Part shown: piece by piece, positions 53,438 to 63,383 of the stretch
How the letters are laid out: each line of letters begins with the position of its first letter
Position numbering within the stretch: position 1 is the first letter of the stretch
Source: Varunaivibrio sulfuroxidans
Lineage (GTDB): Bacteria; Pseudomonadota; Alphaproteobacteria; Rhodospirillales; Magnetovibrionaceae
NCBI RefSeq assembly: GCF_029318635.1
Contig: NZ_CP119676.1
Coordinates: 2,989,001 to 3,053,000, forward strand
Reading direction: 5' to 3'
DNA length: 64,000 nucleotides
The notes under the pieces: generated by a model
What the model saw: the letters and a program-made list of their open reading frames with translations, nothing else
Told to the model about the DNA's origin: nothing
Databases searched by the model: none
Made by a program: the position numbers and the translations under genes

Positions 53438-55579
53438 TCAGGCGTGGCGGCTTTTTTCTTGGGCTTCAGCGCCCATCAACAGGCGGAACGACGGGTTGTT
53501 CATCAGTTCTCCAACCCGGGCGCGATCCGCCTCATCCGCAAGTTCTGGGTTATCCAAAACCCAGTGCGCGTAATCCTCGTCGGTTTTGAAATCGGGCCGC
53601 TGTCCTGGCGATACCGGAAGGGCGACGATTTCGGCGCCGGGCGCGTCCTCGCCGTTCATTTCGGCGATGATGCGGGCGGCTTCGGCTTCCTCATCAGGGC
53701 TTAACGTGACGGGTTCCGGTCCGTTTGGGCGCTTCATCAAGGGCTCGTAACCGGGCTGGGCGGCCATGCGCACGACCTTACTTTCCAGCGGAGGTAGGTT
53801 TTCGGGCGTCGGCAGCCCGGCGGCGATCTCCCGGCCCGTCAGCTTGACGTGCTGGTCAAGCAGGACCTTGGTGTTTTTGATAAAGGCGCGACGGGTGCGA
53901 CCGTGATCACGGGCGGCGGCGGCATCGTTGAATCCGGTATCTTCGATCACGTCGGCGAAACCCAAATACGACCCGTCAAGCCGATAGACGTGTAGACCGT
54001 CGTGCAGATTGTCGGGGTCGAAACGCACCACCAGTTTTTGACCCCGGTGACCGTGCAGAAAGTCGCCCCAATAGCGGTTGCCCATCAAGGTCAGTCCGCC
54101 GTCGCGCCGGGCGGCGGTGATCCCCTCGGCGGCCAAAAGCCACAGGCGTTTTTGTTCCTCGGTCGCTTTTTTAATCGGCGCGGTGACGTACGACGGCGCG
54201 AACGTTTGCACGAAAGACCGCCCGTTGCAGACGGTGGCGCGACGCCCGGTGCGGGTGTTGTGCTCGTCGATCCCTTCGGCGACGACGCGCACGAAATCAT
54301 CGATCGGGATCGCCTTCGACCCATAATTTTCCGGCTTATTTAGCGGCGTGTTGCCGGTCCAAGCACCGGCGAAGGCGGGATGTTTGGCGATATCGTTGCA
54401 AAAGTCCCGAAACGCCCGTTCGATGGGTTTCGATTGGCCGGAATAGGGGTTCGTCCAATGGACCTCGACCCCCAACTGGGTGAGGATGCCGACCGGCTCC
54501 TCGTCTTTGACTTTAAATCGATACCTGTTCGGGATTCCGCCAGTCAGCCACTTCGCGGCGAAACCGCGCCCATTGTCCAAATAAATGTGTCCGGGGATTC
54601 CGTAAACCTCGACCACGTCGCCGATCGCCAGGCGCACGGATTCGCGGTTTTCCGATTTATCGATGCGCCAGCCCAAAAACATGCCGGAATAAAGGTCTTG
54701 GATGGCCACCATCATCGGGCGCATGGGCTTGTCTTCGTCTGGCCATTTGACCCACACGTCCCATTTATGTCCGTCGGCGTTGACCGCTTCGAGCGCGTGG
54801 AAAACGGACCGGTCGCGCTGCTGCGCGGGGTACATCGCCTTCAGCGTATCGACGCCGCGGCGGGCGAGGATTTTGACCGGCGCGGCGATCTCGCGCTCCA
54901 TCCGGCGCTCCAACGCCCGCGACGATGGCACGGCCCAACCGTGAGCGGCGGCGGCACTTTTAAGGCGGCGATAACAGCTCTCAAAGGTCGGGCGCTCGGC
55001 GCGCAGGTAATCGGACTTGACCATTTCCCACGCCGCCTCATCGCACGCGGCGGTTTTCGTCCGCCCGGTGTGGCGCGGGGCCAGGGCGGGCAGCCAGTCG
55101 GCGCGCGCCACGCCCGCGATCAAGCCGAACCAATTATATATCGTCGCCGGCGTCACCCCGTGGCGCTTGCCCACCGTGACGACCGCCAGGTTCTTGGTCA
55201 GTCCGCCACGATAAAGCCCATTGACCTCCTCGATAATCGCCAGTCGCGCGATCGTTTTTTCCTTTCGGGCATCGGGAAGGCTTTCGTAAAACGCCCACGC
55301 GGCGGCGGTGGACGTCTCGTCCCGCGCGGCCGATTTTTTCGCCTTTTCCGGGGCCAGATCAATCATGATCTTGGCCTGCGCAGCGGCGGGCAAAAGGGTG
55401 TAATGATATTCAACGCCACCGCCCCGCCCGGCGCGCTTGCGGGCCAGCGCCCCGCCCGCCATGTTTTTACGATCGCCCCAGGCCTCGCGTTGGGCAAGGC
55501 TTTGCACGCCACGATCTGTCGCGGGCAATCCGGGCAGCGCGCGGGCGGCGAGATCGGCGGCGGTGAACCATTCTTTCAT
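53438..55579 (-). CDS. Mu-type transposase A
   Basis: A 713-aa DDE recombinase. N-terminal Mu-type DNA-binding domain: WFTAADLAARALPGLPATDRGVQSLAQREAW. Catalytic residues: D269 in NADGHKWD, D335 in YLDNGRGF and E387 in KPIERAF. A beta-barrel part follows (LVVRFDPDNLHDGLHVYRLDG), and a C-terminal region interacts with the B protein. It cuts and joins the phage ends found at 22650 and 58717. Its start overlaps the upstream gene by four bases. Confidence 0.95.
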   Translation of the reverse strand: MKEWFTAADLAARALPGLPATDRGVQSLAQREAWGDRKNMAGGALARKRAGRGGGVEYHYTLLPAAAQAKIMIDLAPEKAKKSAARDETSTAAAWAFYESLPDARKEKTIARLAIIEEVNGLYRGGLTKNLAVVTVGKRHGVTPATIYNWFGLIAGVARADWLPALAPRHTGRTKTAACDEAAWEMVKSDYLRAERPTFESCYRRLKSAAAAHGWAVPSSRALERRMEREIAAPVKILARRGVDTLKAMYPAQQRDRSVFHALEAVNADGHKWDVWVKWPDEDKPMRPMMVAIQDLYSGMFLGWRIDKSENRESVRLAIGDVVEVYGIPGHIYLDNGRGFAAKWLTGGIPNRYRFKVKDEEPVGILTQLGVEVHWTNPYSGQSKPIERAFRDFCNDIAKHPAFAGAWTGNTPLNKPENYGSKAIPIDDFVRVVAEGIDEHNTRTGRRATVCNGRSFVQTFAPSYVTAPIKKATEEQKRLWLLAAEGITAARRDGGLTLMGNRYWGDFLHGHRGQKLVVRFDPDNLHDGLHVYRLDGSYLGFADVIEDTGFNDAAAARDHGRTRRAFIKNTKVLLDQHVKLTGREIAAGLPTPENLPPLESKVVRMAAQPGYEPLMKRPNGPEPVTLSPDEEAEAARIIAEMNGEDAPGAEIVALPVSPGQRPDFKTDEDYAHWVLDNPELADEADRARVGELMNNPSFRLLMGAEAQEKSRHA

Positions 55580-56034
55580 CGCTTGACCCCCCGCCGCGCC
55601 GATCGGCGCGCGTATTCGAATGCTTTATCGATGTCTTCCTTGCGGTCCGCGAGTTGGCCGACCTCGACCCACGGCAAATATTTGTCGTCCACAACGCTGT
55701 GGGCAAACAATTCCGCGCCCATTTGCAACAACCGCACGTCGCCGGTGACGTGGACCATCGCCAGTAGACGCAAAAACGGGATGGTATGATCTTCGCGCGC
55801 CTCGCTGGCATAAGCGTCAAGCATGGCCTTGCTGACGTCCTCGCCCAGCCAGTCGCTCATGGCGGCGGCGATGTCGGCGCGGGGGATGTCGGAGCCTTTC
55901 AGGGTCTCGGCCACCGCGCGAGCGATGCGCGAGCGCAATGTCGCGGTGCGGACCCTCGCATCGTCGAACCGCTCAATCAAAGTCGGCGGTTCCCAACTCA
56001 AAAGGTCCAGGGTCAGGCCGTCGCGCCGGGTCAT
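55576..56034 (-). CDS. Early phage protein upstream of transposase
   Basis: A 152-aa helical protein (LRSRIARAVAETLKGSDIPRADIAAAMSDWLGEDVSKAMLDAYASEAREDHTIPFLRLLAMVHVTGD). This class is common between the ParB-like and A genes of Mu-like phages. The central part resembles a helix-turn-helix. It overlaps both neighbours (ATGA junctions). Function unknown. Confidence 0.72.
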   Translation of the reverse strand: MTRRDGLTLDLLSWEPPTLIERFDDARVRTATLRSRIARAVAETLKGSDIPRADIAAAMSDWLGEDVSKAMLDAYASEAREDHTIPFLRLLAMVHVTGDVRLLQMGAELFAHSVVDDKYLPWVEVGQLADRKEDIDKAFEYARRSARRGVKR

Positions 56035-56858
56035 TTCACCCCCTTGGTGCAGTCTGCGGAGAGACTGCCTTCATCGATCAGATGCTCAACGAACAGCCGG
56101 CGCGCCTTGGCGTCGGCCCGGGACCATGTTTCTTTCAGTTTGTTGAGGGCTTTTTCAGACGGGTCGCCGGCGGCGGCGCGATCGACGTGGCCATCGATGA
56201 TCTTGACCGCCTGGGCGACGGTTCTCGCCGCGCCTTCCGGGGCGGTCAGGCGTTGGGCGACCGCGTCTTGTTTTTCGAAGGGAAGCCGCGATAGAGCGTA
56301 AAGTTCTTTTTGGTTGTCCTCGAAATCGGACCCTCGCAACGCGGCGGCGGCGGCGGCCGTCAAGTGTTCGCCGATGGACGCTTCACGCTGGATGGTCCGG
56401 CCGGCGCGCTCCGAACGTGTGGCGACCTCTGCGTACCAATCGTTCAAGTTGCCAACAGTGGCATCTTGCTCATTTGTGCGGTCTCCGCCGTGGCGGGCGT
56501 GAGGGTTTTCTACCTGATAAAGGCGCTTCAGTTCGGCCAAAAACTGTGCGCGCTCCAACTTGCTTAAGTCGTTTCGCGTAATGTTTTCCAAAATCTCATG
56601 ACGGCGCAACGCCGCGGCGGGGCCGACAATGACAACGGCTGCAATCTCCGTTAATCCAGCGGACTTGCACGCTTCCAATCGGTGCGCGCCGGCGACCAGG
56701 CGATATTTATTTCCGCCACTTTGCGCCGCGACCTCAATCGGTTGGCGTAAGCCGCGCTGGGCGATGTCCTCGGCCAGCCCCTTGACGGCGCTCAGTGTGA
56801 CCGGCCGTAGACGGTTTTTAACCTCGATGCTGTCGATGTCGATCATTTTAATGAGCAT
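56031..56858 (-). CDS. ParB N-terminal domain protein
   Basis: A 275-aa protein. The ParB/Srx-like fold is at about 8-95: IDSIEVKNRLRPV, GLAEDIAQRGLRQPIEV, YRLVAGAHRLEACKSAG and HEILENITRNDLSKLERAQFLAELKRLYQ. The nucleotide-binding GxxRxxA-type motif appears as GAHRLEA. The rest is helical with a helix-turn-helix region. I chose the ATG at 56858 behind GAGGA. A role in early gene control or partition-like DNA clamping is possible. It runs opposite to the plus-strand gene at 56984. Confidence 0.82.
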   Translation of the reverse strand: MLIKMIDIDSIEVKNRLRPVTLSAVKGLAEDIAQRGLRQPIEVAAQSGGNKYRLVAGAHRLEACKSAGLTEIAAVVIVGPAAALRRHEILENITRNDLSKLERAQFLAELKRLYQVENPHARHGGDRTNEQDATVGNLNDWYAEVATRSERAGRTIQREASIGEHLTAAAAAALRGSDFEDNQKELYALSRLPFEKQDAVAQRLTAPEGAARTVAQAVKIIDGHVDRAAAGDPSEKALNKLKETWSRADAKARRLFVEHLIDEGSLSADCTKGVK

Positions 56859-56983
56859 TCTGAGTTTCCTCAAAAAGATGGGCGCCGCCAGCATATCGGC
56901 AAGGAAGCACATGCGTGACGGACGGCGCCCCGTCTCCTATGCTCGGGGAAACTGCTAACAAACCGGAAGAACAGGAGGCAAAA

Positions 56984-57250
56984 ATGAATCCAGCTGGCTT
57001 TGATGCCCTCGGCGTGGTCGAGACCGCATTGCGAGAGATCGTGGTGACGCTGGAGGCCAAAGGTCTCCTCACCCGCGAGGACGTTGCAAAGGCTTTATTG
57101 CGCACTGAGGTCATCGCAGACCTCCAGGACGAAGACGGGCCGCCAACCCGCGTAACATATGCCGAACGCGACGACTGGCTTCAGCGCGGCCAAAATGGGC
57201 CTGACCCATGGGACCAGGAGCGGCGGACCGAGACTGACATACTTGGTTGA
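56984..57250 (+). CDS. Plus-strand orphan gene in early region
   Basis: An 88-aa acidic protein on the strand opposite to the early operon, between ner and the ParB-like gene. It opens MNPAGFDALGVVETALREIVVTLEAKGLLTREDVAKALLRTEVIADL, a helical layout, and ends in a charged tail (WDQERRTETDILG). The ribosome binding site ACAGGAGG is the best in the prophage. A TATGCT about 45 bases upstream may be a -10. Its third-position GC is lower than its neighbours, suggesting separate acquisition. No family recognised. Confidence 0.55.
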   Translation: MNPAGFDALGVVETALREIVVTLEAKGLLTREDVAKALLRTEVIADLQDEDGPPTRVTYAERDDWLQRGQNGPDPWDQERRTETDILG

Positions 57251-57318
57251 AATATTCCCGGCGCGCCCGGGCATGGGCCTTGGCGGCATCGCGGTCAGAA
57301 AAGGGGGTATTCATCATG

Positions 57319-57621
57319 TCAGGCGGCCTCCGATTTTTTTACATGTGCGCGGCGCATGGTCCTGTTATTCTTCCTCAACCAGGTGGAAGGACGGACAGGC
57401 CTGCCGCTGGAGACGTAATAGCGCGACGGCCAGATGTCTTGCGGCGCGGCGCCGAGGACTTCGGCGATGGCCGATTGCAGACGGGCGTTGGGAACACGCT
57501 TGATCTTGGCGATTGCGGCCGTGCTAACGCCGTGGCGGAGGGCGACTTCGGACAAGCTAATGCCCTTTTTGCCAAGGGCCGCTTTTACGTCCCACCAGTG
57601 CGTGTCTTTTTGTTTGGCCAT
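57319..57621 (-). CDS. ner: Ner-like negative regulator
   Basis: A 100-aa protein of the Ner/Nlp family that turns down early transcription and repressor synthesis in Mu. WWDVKAALGKKGISLSEVALRHGVSTAAIAKIK is the helix-turn-helix, followed by ARLQSAIAEVLGAAPQDIWPSRY, the family signature. The C-terminus is longer than in Mu and basic. It is the first early gene, starting 65 bases from the likely early promoter. Confidence 0.85.
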   Translation of the reverse strand: MAKQKDTHWWDVKAALGKKGISLSEVALRHGVSTAAIAKIKRVPNARLQSAIAEVLGAAPQDIWPSRYYVSSGRPVRPSTWLRKNNRTMRRAHVKKSEAA

Positions 57622-57787
57622 TGGGTGCCCATAGATGCGGCGGGAGCCGCTTTTTTAAAGGTCTAGTTGGTCAATATGTGGACCAAGTTTAGCCATATTC
57701 AGTGTTTTGTAAAGCCGTTATCGGTTTTTCGGTGTTTAAAAAATGATGTATACGGCTTTTTTTGTAAATTATTCGGTGTTTTTAAAT
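57622..57787. promoter_or_regulatory. Repressor/ner switch region with operator repeats
   Basis: Three direct copies of TTCRGTGTTT followed by A-rich DNA start at 57698, 57728 and 57772. An inverted pair TTGGTC/GACCAA frames 57668-57687. On the minus strand TTTACA (57713-57708), a 16-base spacer and TAAACT (57691-57686) form a likely early promoter. On the plus strand TGATGTATACG near 57745-57754 looks like an extended -10 for the repressor. Binding by repressor and Ner is inferred. Confidence 0.55.
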
Positions 57788-58214
57788 GGTTAGCCAAACT
57801 CCGCAACAGAAAAATAACTCCAGAGAAGATTTCGGAGTTTCAGACTTAAAGTCCGAAATCGCGGAGCGAATCCGTTCTGTAATTCGAGATTCTGGGGGAA
57901 ATGCCGTCGTTGCTGAAAAAAGCGGTGTTCCATTGCGTACGGTTGGAAACTACACAACGGCAACAACTGAGCCCAAAATCGTCAGCCTCTCAAAGATCGC
58001 TCAGACATGCGGGGTGTCCCTCGACTGGATTGCGACAGGTCAAGGACCGAAGAACGTAACGGAGCCGACGGACATATTGGATGCTGATGTTCTTGAGGTG
58101 AGCTATAAAATTGCCGAGGAAATGTTTGGGAATCAGGGATTTACGCCTGAATACAAGGCAAAAATATTAATGATAATTTATGAAAAGGGCTTGGAGGAAA
58201 AGAAGAAGTGCTGA
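57786..58214 (+). CDS. Phage repressor (c-like), helix-turn-helix
   Basis: A 142-aa DNA-binding protein, the only clear regulator transcribed opposite to the early operon. The helix-turn-helix spans about 25-75: EIAERIRSVIRDSGGNAVVAEKSGVPLRTVGNY and then ISLSKIAQTCGVSLDWIATGQG, a phrase typical of cI-like repressors. It lacks the C-terminal protease-like domain of SOS-cleaved repressors. The ATG at 57786 has no clear ribosome binding site. It should keep the prophage silent. Confidence 0.8.
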   Translation: MVSQTPQQKNNSREDFGVSDLKSEIAERIRSVIRDSGGNAVVAEKSGVPLRTVGNYTTATTEPKIVSLSKIAQTCGVSLDWIATGQGPKNVTEPTDILDADVLEVSYKIAEEMFGNQGFTPEYKAKILMIIYEKGLEEKKKC

Positions 58215-58241
58215 TACCATCAACCATTATAGGTAGCTGAT

Positions 58242-58544
58242 ATGAGTGGGGTGGTTATGGAGTTTGAGGATAGGCTGAGAAGAGTTGTTAACCACGCGTG
58301 TGGCCACAATGATAACTTAAAAGGCAAAAGCCTTTTTGAAAATAGCGACGAGCACCTTGCTAAGGGCCGATCATATAAAGTAACCGTTTACGTCCCGGTA
58401 ACTGTAACTATATATAATATATACAAAAAAATGAGTTGCGAGGCCATACATGGCGTCAGTAGTGGCCAATCCGCCCATGACGAACCAGCGCATGTCGCTC
58501 GCCGACGCGCCCTCCTCGCCAGCCTGCCACCTTACAAGTACTAA
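58242..58544 (+). CDS. Possible left-end gene downstream of repressor
   Basis: A 100-aa open frame in the repressor direction, starting at 58242 after AGGTAGCTGAT, with an alternative ATG at 58257. The first 75 residues (EFEDRLRRVVNHACGHNDNLKGKS, then KVTVYVPVTVTIYNIYKK) look protein-like and share the AT-richness of the repressor. The tail is less convincing and stops at the first left-end transposase site. No family recognised. Confidence 0.4.
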   Translation: MSGVVMEFEDRLRRVVNHACGHNDNLKGKSLFENSDEHLAKGRSYKVTVYVPVTVTIYNIYKKMSCEAIHGVSSGQSAHDEPAHVARRRALLASLPPYKY

Positions 58545-58729: not shown

Positions 58730-59593
58730 TCACCTCGCGCCTTCGGCGGCGATATGGCGGATCATGCCTTCATATTGTTCCCATTCCTTGCCCGGCCCAT
58801 CCAAGCGGAAAACCACCAAGCCGTTGGCGTCGAGGACGTAGGTGGTCGGGTAAACGCCGGCCAAGCGGCGGTCGTTGAGCACGGTGCCGTCGGCCAGGGT
58901 GAAGGTGTCGTTTCCGCGCCCTTTTTGCCCCGAGTCGTAAAGGGGCATGGTGAAGCCGCGCCTTTGCGCCCAACGCCGAGATTTGGCGATGGGCTCGTGC
59001 CCTTGAACCAGGACGAAGGCGGCGCTGTCGTCTTTCGTCAACGCATTGTAAAATTTTTGCAGGTCTGGGAATTCCACCTGGCAGGGCGGGCACCAACTGC
59101 CCCAGAAATGGACCACCACGGGTTTGCCGCGCAGGGCCGAAAGTGCGACCTTGCGACCATCCGGCGCCTTTAAGGCGAGATCGGGAAAGCGCTGGCCGCG
59201 TCCCGTTCCCATTGGCGCCTCGGTGGCGGCAGCGGCGCTCATATGCAGATCCCAAGACGCCGACCATGCCGCCGCGTCGAACACCACCTGGTCGTTGACG
59301 CTATAGAGTTGGCAAGGCTGTTCGGTGTGCGCGCGGCAGGCGTCGAGGGCCTGAATTTCGGCTTGTTCCTGCAAGTCGGCGCCGGAAACCCAGGCCCAGG
59401 CGCCGCCGGGCGCGATGGCGAAGGCGCGGTTCGCGGGCGCAGCGGAATAGGCCCGATAGCCGTCTCGGGCGGCTTGGTCGAAGTGGGTTAACACGGCCCC
59501 CTTGTCGAGACTGGCGCCCTGGGCGGAGGCGGTGAGGGCGCACCATGGCGCCGCTAAGAACAAAATAGCGAATCGCGATATTTTTTCAATCAT
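58730..59593 (-). CDS. TlpA-like thiol-disulfide oxidoreductase with DUF4189-like domain
   Basis: A 287-aa exported protein. A signal peptide occupies about residues 1-25. The N-terminal domain (RAFAIAPGGAWAWVSGADLQEQAEIQALDACRAH, cysteines near 86 and 94) is DUF4189-like. The C-terminal thioredoxin fold has VVVHFWGSWCPPCQVEFPDL with the active cysteines at 168 and 171 and a late cis-proline in YPTTYVLD. It should act in the periplasm, perhaps on cytochrome c or sulfur proteins. Start 59593 follows GGGAGA. It is divergent from the DUF302-octaheme operon. Confidence 0.83.
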   Translation of the reverse strand: MIEKISRFAILFLAAPWCALTASAQGASLDKGAVLTHFDQAARDGYRAYSAAPANRAFAIAPGGAWAWVSGADLQEQAEIQALDACRAHTEQPCQLYSVNDQVVFDAAAWSASWDLHMSAAAATEAPMGTGRGQRFPDLALKAPDGRKVALSALRGKPVVVHFWGSWCPPCQVEFPDLQKFYNALTKDDSAAFVLVQGHEPIAKSRRWAQRRGFTMPLYDSGQKGRGNDTFTLADGTVLNDRRLAGVYPTTYVLDANGLVVFRLDGPGKEWEQYEGMIRHIAAEGAR

Positions 59594-59709
59594 TGCAGCG
59601 TCTCCCACAGCGCCCGGAGGGTTCGAAAAGAGAGTTTAAAAGATATGCTCCAGCATTCGGATTCTACTAATTTTTTGTGGAAATTATCTTTTGATAAATT
59701 AATGAAATC

Positions 59710-59731
59710 AATGAATTAGCTTGCATTCATT
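59710..59731. promoter_or_regulatory. Inverted repeat in divergent promoter region
   Basis: AATGAAT (59710-59716) and ATTCATT (59725-59731) are exact complements with 8 bases between them, inside a very AT-rich stretch. This resembles operators of ArsR-type regulators, some of which sense sulfur compounds. It lies about 70 bases before the DUF302 start and 115 from the redoxin start, where it could control both. No regulator gene is in view. Confidence 0.4.
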
Positions 59732-59801
59732 AGGCGTTACTTATATTATCTCACTCTAATATATAGGGATCAAGCCTATCCTAGTGAAGAGGAGCATCGC
59801 C

Positions 59802-60350
59802 ATGCTGAAGATCCTCTCAAGCTTTCTCGCCGGGATCGCGTTCGTTGCGATCTTGGCGTGGCAATTCGCGGGCCAGTTGATGATACAGGCGTATCCAAGC
59901 CCCTATGGCGTGGAAGAAACCGCGGCCCGAATTCAACACAACATCAAAGAGGCGGGATGGTCCCTTTCGGGGCTGCGTAGTCCGTCGAACACCATCCGCC
60001 ATCTGGGCGCCACCGTGCCCAACGTTCTTCTGGTGGAAGCCTGCAATCCCGATTACTCAAAGCCTCTGCTCAAGAATGACGGCACGCGCATTCTCTCGAT
60101 TTTGATGCCGTGCACGATCACCGTCTACGAAGGCGGTGACGGCAAAACCTACATCGGCCTTTTGAATTCCGGTCTGATGGGCAAATTGTTCGGACCTCTG
60201 GTTTCCGAGGTCATGGGCAAGGTCGCCGCCGACCAGCAAAAATTCATTACCTTCGATCCGAGCAAGCCCGCTCCGGCGCTTATTCGCAAGAGCCCCGGTG
60301 GAAGCGGCGGATCCGGTCAGGGCGGCATCAAGGATTTGGGGGGCTGCTGA
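59802..60350 (+). CDS. DUF302 protein with N-terminal anchor
   Basis: A 182-aa protein. A hydrophobic N-terminal helix (about 4-25) anchors it or serves as signal. The DUF302 domain follows: ETAARIQHNIKEAGWSLSGLR and VPNVLLVEACNPDYSKPLLKNDGTRILSILMPCTITVYEGGDGKTYIG. The tail is rich in glycine and serine and ends GGC. ATG 59802 follows GAGGAG. DUF302 proteins are frequent near sulfur-oxidation genes, but their role is not established. It leads the operon with the octaheme cytochrome, 59 bases upstream. Confidence 0.8.
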   Translation: MLKILSSFLAGIAFVAILAWQFAGQLMIQAYPSPYGVEETAARIQHNIKEAGWSLSGLRSPSNTIRHLGATVPNVLLVEACNPDYSKPLLKNDGTRILSILMPCTITVYEGGDGKTYIGLLNSGLMGKLFGPLVSEVMGKVAADQQKFITFDPSKPAPALIRKSPGGSGGSGQGGIKDLGGC

Positions 60351-60409
60351 TCGCAGCCGCTCGACCTTTTGCGCGCCAGGGTCTTCCAGGGAAAACGTAG
60401 GGGATTAAA

Positions 60410-62092
60410 ATGATCAAGGTATTCAAAATAGCCCAAGGGCTATGGGCAGGAGTTCCTAAGGTCGTCTTGAGCGGAATTCTTGTTCTCACGGGCGCGGTGG
60501 CCCTCTCGGCGGTGACGCCGTGCGAGGTGGCGCGGGCGTCGGACGACGCGGCGGCGCAATCAACGACGATGGCGAAGATCAAAGCCATATCGTCCACCGC
60601 CGATCACAGCAAGTTCGAGGAACTCAAAGGTCCCTTCGCCACCGGACCGGACGTCACCAAGGCGTGCCTGAAGTGCCATACCGAGGCCGCCAAACAGGTC
60701 CACAAGACCAAGCACTGGAATTGGGACGTGGTCAACGAACGCTCCGGCCAGCGCCTGGGCAAGAAGAACATCATTAACAATTTCTGCGGTTCCGTGGTGT
60801 CGAACGAGCCGCGCTGCACCAGTTGCCACATCGGTTATGGCTGGAAGGACGGCAAGTTCGACTTCGCCAAGCAGGAAAACGTAGACTGCCTGGTGTGTCA
60901 CGACGGCACATCGAAATATCGTAAATTCCCCGCCGGGGCGGGGCATCCGGCCTACACGCCCAGTGAATGGCCGGCCAAGAGCGGACGCTTCATCCAGCCG
61001 CTCAATCTCGCCGACATCGCGCAACACGTCGGCCCCACCAGCCGGCGCAGTTGCGGTATGTGCCACTTCCTGGGCGGCGGCGGAAACGCCGTCAAACACG
61101 GCGATCTGGACGTCTCGCTGATTAATCCCGGGCGCTACCTGGATGTCCATATGAGCCCGCAGAAATTGAATTTCACCTGCTCGAAATGTCATGGCGGGGA
61201 AAAACACTTGGTGCAGGGTAGCCGCTATACCGCCAACGCCAAGGATATGTCCGGCATCGACGTTCCCGGGCGAACCGACGGCAGCCGGGCGACCTGCGAA
61301 TCGTGCCATGGCGCGAGGCCCCATCCGGCCACGGCCAATCCGAAACTGAACGACCATACCGATCGTGTCGCCTGTCAGACTTGTCATATTCCGGAATTCG
61401 CCCGCGGCGGATATCCCACCAAGATGTGGTGGGACTGGTCAACCGCCGGAAAATTGACCCCCGACGGCAAGCCCTTGGTAATCAAAAACGCCAAAGGTGA
61501 GGTTATCTACAACGGTATGAAGGGGGATTTCGCTTGGGGCGCCAATGTGGTCCCGGAATACCGCTGGTTCGACGGCAACGTCAAGTTCACCCTGTTCGGC
61601 GACAAGGTCACCGGCGACGAGGTCGTTCCGATCAATAAATACGGCGGCAGCGCCAATGACCCCAATTCACGCATCTGGCCGTTTAAGGTGATGCGTGGCA
61701 AGCAGGCCTATGACAAGGGTCTGCAAACGCTGGCGGTGGTGCACACCTTTGGCGCCGACGACAGCGCCTATTGGACCAACTTCAATTGGGACAAGGCGTT
61801 GACGGCGGGCATGGAGGCCGTGGGCGCCACCTATAGCGGAAAAATGGGGTTCGTGAGGACCGAAATGTCCTGGCCGATCACGCATATGGTCGCGCCCAAG
61901 GAGGATGCGCTGGCGTGCGAATCCTGCCACAGCCTGAACAGCCGGCTGAAAGACGTCCCGGGCCTTTATATCCCCGGTCGCGACCGCTTCGGACTTTTGG
62001 ACACCATCGCCTGGACGATCGCCGGTCTGACCCTGCTGGGCGTGCTCGGCCATGGGGCTCTGCGTTACTGGATGCATCGGAAGGAGGGCTAA
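60410..62092 (+). CDS. Octaheme cytochrome c, tetrathionate reductase family, membrane-anchored
   Basis: A 560-aa protein with a signal peptide (about 1-43), eight CxxCH heme sites at 86, 136, 160, 215, 257, 296, 322 and 503, and a C-terminal transmembrane helix near 530-548. This is the layout of the octaheme tetrathionate reductase (OTR) family, which also reduces nitrite and hydroxylamine in vitro. GYGWKD right after heme 2 may hold the lysine ligand (Lys146) of the active heme. Electrons should come from the cytochrome b encoded three bases downstream. Oxidative direction cannot be excluded. Confidence 0.88.
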   Translation: MIKVFKIAQGLWAGVPKVVLSGILVLTGAVALSAVTPCEVARASDDAAAQSTTMAKIKAISSTADHSKFEELKGPFATGPDVTKACLKCHTEAAKQVHKTKHWNWDVVNERSGQRLGKKNIINNFCGSVVSNEPRCTSCHIGYGWKDGKFDFAKQENVDCLVCHDGTSKYRKFPAGAGHPAYTPSEWPAKSGRFIQPLNLADIAQHVGPTSRRSCGMCHFLGGGGNAVKHGDLDVSLINPGRYLDVHMSPQKLNFTCSKCHGGEKHLVQGSRYTANAKDMSGIDVPGRTDGSRATCESCHGARPHPATANPKLNDHTDRVACQTCHIPEFARGGYPTKMWWDWSTAGKLTPDGKPLVIKNAKGEVIYNGMKGDFAWGANVVPEYRWFDGNVKFTLFGDKVTGDEVVPINKYGGSANDPNSRIWPFKVMRGKQAYDKGLQTLAVVHTFGADDSAYWTNFNWDKALTAGMEAVGATYSGKMGFVRTEMSWPITHMVAPKEDALACESCHSLNSRLKDVPGLYIPGRDRFGLLDTIAWTIAGLTLLGVLGHGALRYWMHRKEG

Positions 62093-62095
62093 GTC

Positions 62096-62743
62096 ATGCA
62101 ACGGATCTATATCTTCAAACGGTTCGAACGCTTTTGGCACTGGTCGCAGGCCCTTCTCATCGTCACCATGGGGGTGACGGGGTTTGAAATCCACGGCACG
62201 TACCATTGGCTCGGCTACGAGACGGCGCAAAGCACGCATACCACGGCGGCGTGGTTCCTGATCGGGTTGTGGGTGTTCGCCATTTTCTGGCACTTCACGA
62301 CCGGCGAATGGAAACAGTACATTCCGACCACGGAAAATCTGCTGGCGATGATGCGCTACTACGTGACCGGCATCTTCACCCACGCCCCTCATCCCTTCCG
62401 TCAGACCCAATTGACCAAGCATAACCCGTTGCAGCGCTTGGCTTACCTGTTCGTCAAGTTGCTGATCAATCCTCTGATCTGGATCAGTGGATTGCTTTAT
62501 CTGTATTACCCGCAGTGGGAGGCGCTGGGCTTGGGGTGGCTGCATTTGGGCGATGTCGCCATGGTTCACCTATTCGCCGCCTTCCTGATGGTGATCTTCT
62601 TCATCGTGCACATTTACTTCGCGACGACGGGGCATACTGCGACATCCCATATCAAGGCGATGATCACCGGATACGAGGAGGTCGATGACGGCGACCGCGA
62701 AGAAGACGCCAAGGGCGCACCCTCTCGCGAGCCGTCGGTTTAA
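62096..62743 (+). CDS. Diheme cytochrome b (b561/formate dehydrogenase gamma type)
   Basis: A 215-aa inner-membrane protein with four transmembrane helices and heme-ligating histidines in the right places: RFWHWSQ at about 13-18, STHTTAAWF at about 46-52, IFWHFTTGEW near 65, and MVHLFAAF plus FFIVHIYF in the last helix. It passes electrons between the quinone pool and the octaheme cytochrome. It starts three bases after that gene. The acidic C-terminal tail lies in the cytoplasm. Confidence 0.88.
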   Translation: MQRIYIFKRFERFWHWSQALLIVTMGVTGFEIHGTYHWLGYETAQSTHTTAAWFLIGLWVFAIFWHFTTGEWKQYIPTTENLLAMMRYYVTGIFTHAPHPFRQTQLTKHNPLQRLAYLFVKLLINPLIWISGLLYLYYPQWEALGLGWLHLGDVAMVHLFAAFLMVIFFIVHIYFATTGHTATSHIKAMITGYEEVDDGDREEDAKGAPSREPSV

Positions 62744-63053
62744 GGGGGCTGAAAACCATCGTGGACTAAGGGGGGAAGAGCACAAGGACGCCGGAGAGGC
62801 GGCGCGAATAATCGGTCTTTCGGGTGTGTTTCCTGGTTGCTCTTAAAATACGGGGCGTTTCAAGGCGGTAAAATGCGTTGGAGCGTCCCGTGTTTGCGTT
62901 CCGAGGTCGCTTTATCGTTATGGTGGAGAGAGTTCTAGAAAACGAACCCCGACTCGTTTATATGTATTTTCTCTAATGTATAAAGCGCCACGCCGACCGG
63001 CGGTCGGATAAGGGAGCGTAGATTGAGAATAAGGGCAAGGGAGATAAAGACAA
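62744..63053. other. Intergenic region between cytochrome b and DsrC-like genes
   Basis: About 310 bases with no supportable gene. An imperfect GC-rich inverted repeat near 62855-62892 may end the cytochrome operon. A TATAAA at 62979-62984 could be the -10 of a promoter for the DsrC-like gene, whose start follows AAGGGAGA. Confidence 0.45.
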
Positions 63054-63383
63054 ATGAGTTATGCAAACTTGGAACAAAGTGAAAATGGGTATCTGCTCGA
63101 TACATCCGATTGGAGCGAGGATATCGCCGGAGAAATCGCAGCGGTCGAAGACTTGGCGCCATTGAACGCGCGGCAGTGGGACGTCATCAATTTTTTGCGC
63201 GACGAATATTTTTCCAATAACCAGCATCAACCCAATGAACGGGCCATGGTCAAGGCGATGTCGGAAAAATGGGGGGAGAAATTTTCCACCAAGGGACTGT
63301 ACGAGCTGTTTCCGATGCAGCCGTCCAAGCAGGCGGCCAAAATCGCCGGACTCCCCGAAACCAAACGCAAGGGCGGGTATTGA
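63054..63383 (+). CDS. DsrC/TusE-family protein lacking redox cysteines
   Basis: A 109-aa protein clearly of the DsrC/TusE family: NGYLLDTSDWSEDIAGEIAAVE, LNARQWDVINFLRDEYF and GLYELFPMQPSKQAAKIAGLP. Canonical members have a cysteine where Ala95 stands and a penultimate cysteine where Gly108 stands; this protein has no cysteine at all. It therefore cannot carry persulfide and fits the cysteine-less, presumably regulatory, branch (RspA type). The start at 63054 follows AAGGGAGATAAAGACAA. Confidence 0.85.
   Translation: MSYANLEQSENGYLLDTSDWSEDIAGEIAAVEDLAPLNARQWDVINFLRDEYFSNNQHQPNERAMVKAMSEKWGEKFSTKGLYELFPMQPSKQAAKIAGLPETKRKGGY

Follow-up and report, generated by a model that had tools for sequence, protein, structure and literature searches.

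Octaheme cytochromes of the OTR family are usually annotated as tetrathionate or nitrite reductases. The usual carrier of sulfur compounds on a C-terminal Gly-Gly-Cys tail is SoxY, and we know of no function assigned to the DUF302 family. Here and below, each paper is cited for an excerpt of its text. The OTR of Shewanella interacts with a small tetraheme cytochrome of the periplasm (PMC4484225). The arm cysteine of SoxY carries intermediates (PMC5336275), and the mechanism described for TsdA involves a Cys-thiosulfonate (PMC4423706). In lucinid symbionts, otr lies next to soxY-S3 and soxZ in a gene island, and the legend of Fig. 4 in the same report also names a rhodanese, the island being unspecified (PMC11237559). 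In Acidithiobacillia and Thiohalorhabdus, a DUF302 gene between soxA and soxB was guessed to act on trithionate (PMC5037610, PMC5248467). Here we describe a locus of Varunaivibrio sulfuroxidans in which a DUF302 gene directly precedes an OTR gene; it lies in a stretch of 64,000 nucleotides (contig NZ_CP119676.1, positions 2,989,001 to 3,053,000), referred to as the window. A search of the open-licence literature returned no paper containing both 'DUF302' and 'octaheme', and none linking DUF302 with OTR among the matches listed. We propose, with a probability of roughly 0.55, that this DUF302 protein is a swinging-arm sulfur carrier which takes the place of SoxYZ and serves OTR, with a cytochrome b as the link to quinone and a redoxin that resets the arm. 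It builds on a conserved gene order, a tail confined to one group, the mutual exclusion with SoxYZ, the predicted folds and the heme motifs. The features of the locus, in window positions, are as follows.

59784..60350, plus strand: DUF302 gene (PF03625, 44.5 bits against a cut-off of 23), likely true start at the ATG at 59802
60291..60347, plus strand: Gly-rich C-terminal arm of the DUF302 protein, residues 170-188 (predicted local distance difference test, pLDDT, about 30), with the Cys188 codon at 60345-60347
60410..62092, plus strand: OTR-family octaheme cytochrome c (TIGR04315, 639.4 bits against a cut-off of 375)
62096..62743, plus strand: b561-type cytochrome b (PF01292, 70.9 bits)
58730..59608, minus strand: TlpA/ResA-like redoxin RED with WCPPC (Pfam AhpC-TSA/Redoxin), likely start at the ATG at 59593
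59594..59801: intergenic spacer that separates the redoxin gene from DUF302, AT-rich (GC 0.38)
63054..63383, plus strand: DsrC-family gene (PF04358, 102.9 bits against a cut-off of 24.9)

The DUF302, OTR and cytochrome b genes form a tight operon, with gaps of 59 bp and 3 bp between them. The redoxin gene points away from DUF302 on the other strand and is therefore outside the operon. An earlier interpretation made from the letters of this DNA (the sequence-only reading) had placed the five genes together; all of them are present where it put them, but the redoxin gene is divergent and the DsrC-like gene stands 310 bp downstream of cytochrome b. Pfam assigned all five gene products, and the DUF302 protein had no match in NCBIfam.

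The DUF302 protein begins with a hydrophobic helix (residues 2-33), which would act as a membrane anchor, followed by the DUF302 domain with Cys87 and Cys110. Its AlphaFold 2 (AF2) model matched 1q9u with a TMt of 0.80, and residues 170-188 were predicted to be disordered. The protein ends in GGSGGSGQGGIKDLGGC, that is, in LGGC followed by the stop, so that Cys188 is the terminal residue. The same GGC-stop end was observed in all ten OTR-linked DUF302 proteins, including that of the window, and in one unlinked protein (L074), which makes 11 of the 11 members of this family. Among these 11 genes, both the stop codon after GGC (TGA, TAG or TAA) and the glycine codons vary, which suggests that the terminal cysteine is kept by selection. 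None of 59 background DUF302 proteins, hand-picked across families from the top-scoring entries among the matches listed, carried a cysteine within its last three residues. The second DUF302 protein of the host genome has no tail either, and two relatives (L082 and L083, 41-42% identical) terminate at the end of the DUF302 domain.

The distribution of the protein was obtained from searches of named genomes (9 loci), 398 genomes of the phylum and 268 genomes of the order. Six of the 398 phylum genomes matched at 1e-6, the strong matches being the host, G316, G109 and G105. In the order, full-length matches (E below 1e-90) were found in four of the 268 genomes, host included, and all four were located at an OTR gene. 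Five weaker matches followed (E 1e-20 to 1e-23); they spanned the domain only, and the three with readable ends had no tail. In L322 and L323 the frame is interrupted by stops, and these two were excluded from the tail reading.

The neighbourhoods of OTR genes were compared next to these results. An OTR profile gave 33 matches over the cut-off in 26 of 100 related genomes, with all 33 loci included, and 54 matches in 45 of 396 phylum genomes, with 42 of the 54 loci examined. The resulting table holds 79 OTR places; L066, L068 and L072 were omitted because their contigs are already represented by L040, L041 and L039. DUF302 was present at ten of the 79 places, a share inflated by five loci that came from a DUF302-seeded search (L067, L069, L070, L071 and L073), SoxY together with SoxZ at ten, and both at none. 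Without the seeding, 4 of 33 places in the related genomes and 2 of 42 in the phylum (the host and G316) had DUF302 next to OTR. One genome (G001) holds one OTR locus of the DUF302 type and, separately, one of the SoxYZ type. No SoxZ was found at the window locus. The order redoxin-DUF302-OTR recurs in eight further genomes of one clade and, with the redoxin shifted to the far side of cytochrome b, in the distant L081, from another family of the phylum; this linkage is beyond chance. The survey of gene order that the sequence-only reading had called for bore out the redoxin-DUF302-OTR linkage, while that of DsrC was not conserved.

A rhodanese-family gene accompanied nine of the ten SoxYZ-type places, and six other places had a rhodanese without SoxY. 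These loci were identified by Pfam for L047 and L048 (SoxY, SoxZ and a triple rhodanese) and for the SoxY of L255, and by profiles for the rest. They look like the lucinid island (PMC11237559) in that OTR stands beside a carrier with a cysteine arm. The window differs from that island, as excerpted, in that its candidate carrier has a DUF302 fold, a membrane helix and a single subunit, and in the adjacent redoxin gene.

Nine of the SoxY proteins at OTR end in GGCG and one in GGC, and a scan was made for open reading frames (ORFs) of at least 60 aa, up to 4.5 kb away from the 79 OTR genes, that end in G[GA]C[GA]0-2. Spurious frames are among the ORFs listed and act as background. On the OTR strand, 21 of 1484 ORFs carried the motif, compared with 0 of 1523 on the opposite strand. 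The 21 comprised ten DUF302 proteins, ten SoxY proteins and one fusion of a sulfur transporter (YeeE, PF04143) with a rhodanese (L260), which ends in SGGCA. In the whole ORF set the count was 27 of 5278, the additions being the L074 DUF302 protein, the canonical SoxY of the host and four others: two proteins of about 435 aa (L058 and L276) that end in SGGGCG and were recognised by the rhodanese profile only, and two short, probably spurious frames. Around the 59 DUF302 genes of the background sample, the motif was present in 2 of 2819 ORFs. From their sequences, the L260 fusion and the like-sized proteins of L058 and L276 may represent a third arm-bearing partner of OTR.

The window OTR was confirmed as a member of its family, as the sequence-only reading had it, by the profile score and by eight CXXCH motifs, and it aligns over residues 70-513 to Shewanella OTR (1sp3) with an E value of 5e-118. 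Cys126, Asn226 and Lys229 occupy the positions of Shewanella Cys64, Asp150 and Lys153, which we take to be residues of the heme-2 site; literature searches on the heme-2 residues and on RspA yielded no relevant paper. The Cys64 and Lys153 equivalents are thus shared with the Shewanella protein, whereas the Asn at the Asp150 position, a C-terminal hydrophobic stretch, a cytochrome b of its own and a carrier-like partner set the window OTR apart. The hydrophobic stretch, DTIAWTIAGLTLLGVLGHGALRYWM, agrees with the membrane anchor that had been proposed, the assignment as an anchor being made by eye. A cysteine equivalent to Cys64 was found, by a crude pattern, in all ten DUF302-linked and all ten SoxYZ-linked OTRs, in 4 of 6 rhodanese-linked OTRs and in 41 of 53 with neither type of neighbour. 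At the Asp150 position, the DUF302-linked OTRs have 8 Asn and 1 Asp, the SoxYZ-linked 6 Lys, 2 Ala and 2 Asp, the rhodanese-linked 4 Asn and 2 Asp, and those linked to neither 47 Asp, 4 Asn and 1 Ile (n=52). The change to Asn had been considered as a mark of carrier use and was downgraded to a hint because it follows clades.

A quick maximum-likelihood tree was built from 77 OTRs, L069 and L284 being excluded as too short. The DUF302- and SoxYZ-linked OTRs fell in one group of 29, with a Shimodaira-Hasegawa-like approximate likelihood ratio test (SH-aLRT) value of 89, which is not a strong value; seven unlinked and three rhodanese-linked OTRs belong to the same group. Within the tree, the DUF302-linked OTRs occupy two positions separated by supported branches, a clade of eight and L081 alone, and the SoxYZ-linked OTRs likewise occupy two, a clade of nine and L255.

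Cytochrome b accompanied OTR within 6 kb at 67 of the 79 places; L040, L061 and L069 lack it in the table because their contigs end. The window protein belongs to the b561 family and scored 103 bits against the NCBIfam PhsC equivalog, below the cut-off of 204. His15, His48, His158 and His172 were conserved in 50-51 of 51 aligned sequences (of the 67, longer reading frames being omitted), and the protein is probably diheme, as had been claimed. His99 is equally conserved (50/51), so the four histidines are the presumed rather than the established ligands. The cytochrome would provide the quinone link for OTR, and the quinone-linked branch envisaged by the sequence-only reading is therefore plausible, though most OTR places share this arrangement and it does not distinguish the window. 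The pairing of OTR with cytochrome b is ordinary; the DUF302 arm is the new part. That DUF302 might be a new component had been suggested before, and the suggestion is well supported by the conserved adjacency, the group-limited GGC tail and the presence of SoxYZ in its place elsewhere. Beside other OTR-cytochrome b pairs we observed, at L063 (9750-12311), an ArrA-like molybdopterin reductase gene following the pair (1113 bits, below the cut-off of 1600) and, at L033 and L036, CydD/CydC-like thiol exporter genes nearby (the L033 CydD over the NCBIfam cut-off, L036 by similarity only).

The redoxin has a thioredoxin fold with WCxPC, its fold matches including ResA (1st9, TMt 0.84), TlpA and CcmG, and it carries an extra N-terminal domain. 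Against the NCBIfam ResA model it scored 54 bits, below the cut-off of 170. It is presumably exported, judging from a signal recognised by eye. A redoxin gene occurred near OTR at ten of the 79 places, which are exactly the ten with DUF302, and WC[PA]PC was retained in all ten aligned redoxins, window included. The gene is divergent in nine of them; in L081 it is inverted and lies behind cytochrome b.

These observations suggest a mechanism in which the DUF302 protein would be a periplasmic sulfur carrier anchored in the membrane. The cysteine of its arm, Cys188, would bind sulfur in the form of a sulfane, thiosulfonate or sulfonate, and the flexible Gly-rich tail would swing the bound sulfur into the heme-2 site of OTR, as SoxY does for the Sox enzymes. 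OTR would then oxidise or reduce the carrier-bound sulfur, and its hemes would conduct the electrons, in one direction or the other, between this sulfur and the diheme cytochrome b with the quinone pool. Where the arm cysteine has become oxidised or blocked, the TlpA-like redoxin may bring it back to the thiol form. The DUF302 protein would thus share with SoxY the Gly-Gly-Cys arm and a periplasmic location, and differs from it in its longer Gly tail and N-terminal hydrophobic helix.

Several results weigh against the carrier proposal. Nine of the ten OTR-linked DUF302 cases are closely related to one another and form a single group (the tree includes eight of the nine), so the ten amount to about two independent cases. 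Pfam yields DUF302 alone for the protein, with no SoxY domain (PF13501), and by sequence it is not a SoxY homologue. The end motif was defined with the DUF302 and SoxY tails already in view, and the hand-picked, top-scoring background sample also counts against the proposal. The Asp-to-Asn change tracks one clade, L081 retaining Asp. L074 has the tail and no adjacent OTR, with a partial OTR match elsewhere in its genome, and no tail-bearing DUF302 was found in G105, G109 and G113, where OTR is present. The DUF302 genes of the soxA-soxB literature are likewise tied to periplasmic sulfur oxidation (PMC5037610, PMC5248467, as excerpted), but the two DUF302-like genes seen here beside soxB (L192 and L211, among 30 SoxB loci with 1.5 kb flanks) encode no Cys tail. 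These two, identified by an iterated profile alone, were rejected as the same arm protein. Finally, at 53 of the 79 OTR places the profiles detected neither DUF302 nor SoxY nor a rhodanese within 6 kb, and OTR therefore needs no carrier-like partner in general.

The last of these points also speaks for an ordinary respiratory reductase, in which OTR and cytochrome b reduce free tetrathionate, nitrite or hydroxylamine with quinol electrons and the DUF302 protein and redoxin are accessory or incidental. The arrangement without a recognised carrier is the commonest one, the Cys64 and Lys153 equivalents are retained, and reduction of nitrite, hydroxylamine and tetrathionate is reported for Shewanella OTR (PMC4484225). 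Such a reductase would leave unexplained the invariant GGC tail and its absence from other DUF302 proteins, as well as the SoxYZ beside OTR in related loci, and we regard it as unlikely here. A second alternative gives the terminal cysteine and the redoxin the role of a thiol relay that matures OTR, by heme attachment at CXXCH or by protection of Cys126. TlpA/ResA/CcmG-like proteins function in the maturation of cytochromes c and metal centres; the redoxin folds like them and accompanies DUF302 at all ten OTR places. However, eight CXXCH motifs are present in all ten SoxYZ-linked and in 46 of the 53 unlinked OTRs, which have no DUF302 and redoxin, and similar tails occur beside OTR on SoxY and on the YeeE-rhodanese fusion, which makes an assembly factor quite improbable. 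Least probable is a stress locus that detoxifies sulfite, polythionate or nitrite without energy conservation, with DUF302 as a sensor of thiol-reactive sulfur: a membrane anchor and terminal cysteine would be compatible with a sensor and the AT-rich spacer adjoins DUF302, but no signalling domain or regulator was found in the conserved unit and the cytochrome b points to respiration.

The spacer between the divergent genes is a probable two-way promoter region; a promoter scan of it gave promoter-like sites in no clear excess over shuffled sequence. It contains an inverted repeat, AATGAAT-N8-ATTCATT, at 59710-59731, a possible regulator site. The redoxin gene, which ends at 58730, has beside it a Mu-like prophage (approximately 53438-58544), which holds a Mu transposase (DDE_2, 53438-55579, minus strand) and a repressor-like helix-turn-helix gene (57786-58214, plus strand).

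The DsrC-like protein, which the sequence-only reading had counted in the module, was rejected as a part of it. Neither C-terminal cysteine is present, the protein ending in KQAAKIAGLPETKRKGGY (last residues KRKGGY), and only three of the 79 OTR places, window included, have a DsrC-family gene within 6 kb. The most similar protein, in G001, has the same KIAGLPETKRKGGY end and is encoded on a contig other than those of both G001 OTRs. Because of the missing cysteines and this separation the gene was left out, and it probably lies outside the module. Four DsrC-family genes are present in the host genome, and the canonical one is next to the dsr genes. The two further OTR loci with a DsrC-like gene are L250, whose protein has one cysteine (QGC) and lacks the last, and L284, whose protein has neither; each of these genomes carries a DUF302-GGC gene elsewhere.

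The sulfur metabolism of the hosts bears on the direction of the reaction. In the genome of V. sulfuroxidans, soxX, soxY (by the GGCGG model), soxA and soxB scored over their cut-offs and a TsuA/YeeE-like gene below. In its dsr region, DsrH/TusB and DsrC scored over the cut-off and the DsrM- and DsrK-like genes fell short of theirs (the locus ends within the DsrK frame); dsrA is also present in the genome. DsrH beside DsrC is a marker of the oxidative type. Eight of the 11 known DUF302-GGC genomes were tested, several of them incomplete metagenome-assembled genomes (MAGs): dsrA was over the cut-off in seven, the eighth giving a weak partial match, and soxC in none, with three weak matches. By their gene content, the hosts resemble sulfur oxidisers in which no sulfane dehydrogenase SoxCD is recognised. 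A sulfur link of the OTR module is favoured, from gene searches that covered sulfur genes and not nitrogen-cycle genes. Since the tested hosts carry dsr genes and no SoxC above the cut-off, we lean slightly towards oxidation of carrier-bound sulfane sulfur.

On a wider and more tentative view, which we hold at somewhat less than even odds, DUF302-GGC would be a second, unrelated family of swinging-arm sulfur carriers that stands in for SoxYZ beside OTR at two separate positions in the OTR tree, and the YeeE-rhodanese fusions could be a third kind of partner with such an arm. One branch of octaheme 'tetrathionate reductases' would then consist of sulfane dehydrogenases or reductases that depend on a carrier, are linked to quinone and belong to dsr-type sulfur oxidisers lacking SoxCD. 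If the arm does carry sulfur, DUF302 and OTR would both gain a testable role, periplasmic protein-bound sulfur chemistry would extend beyond SoxYZ, and some of the annotated 'tetrathionate reductases' of sulfur oxidisers would use carrier-bound sulfur.

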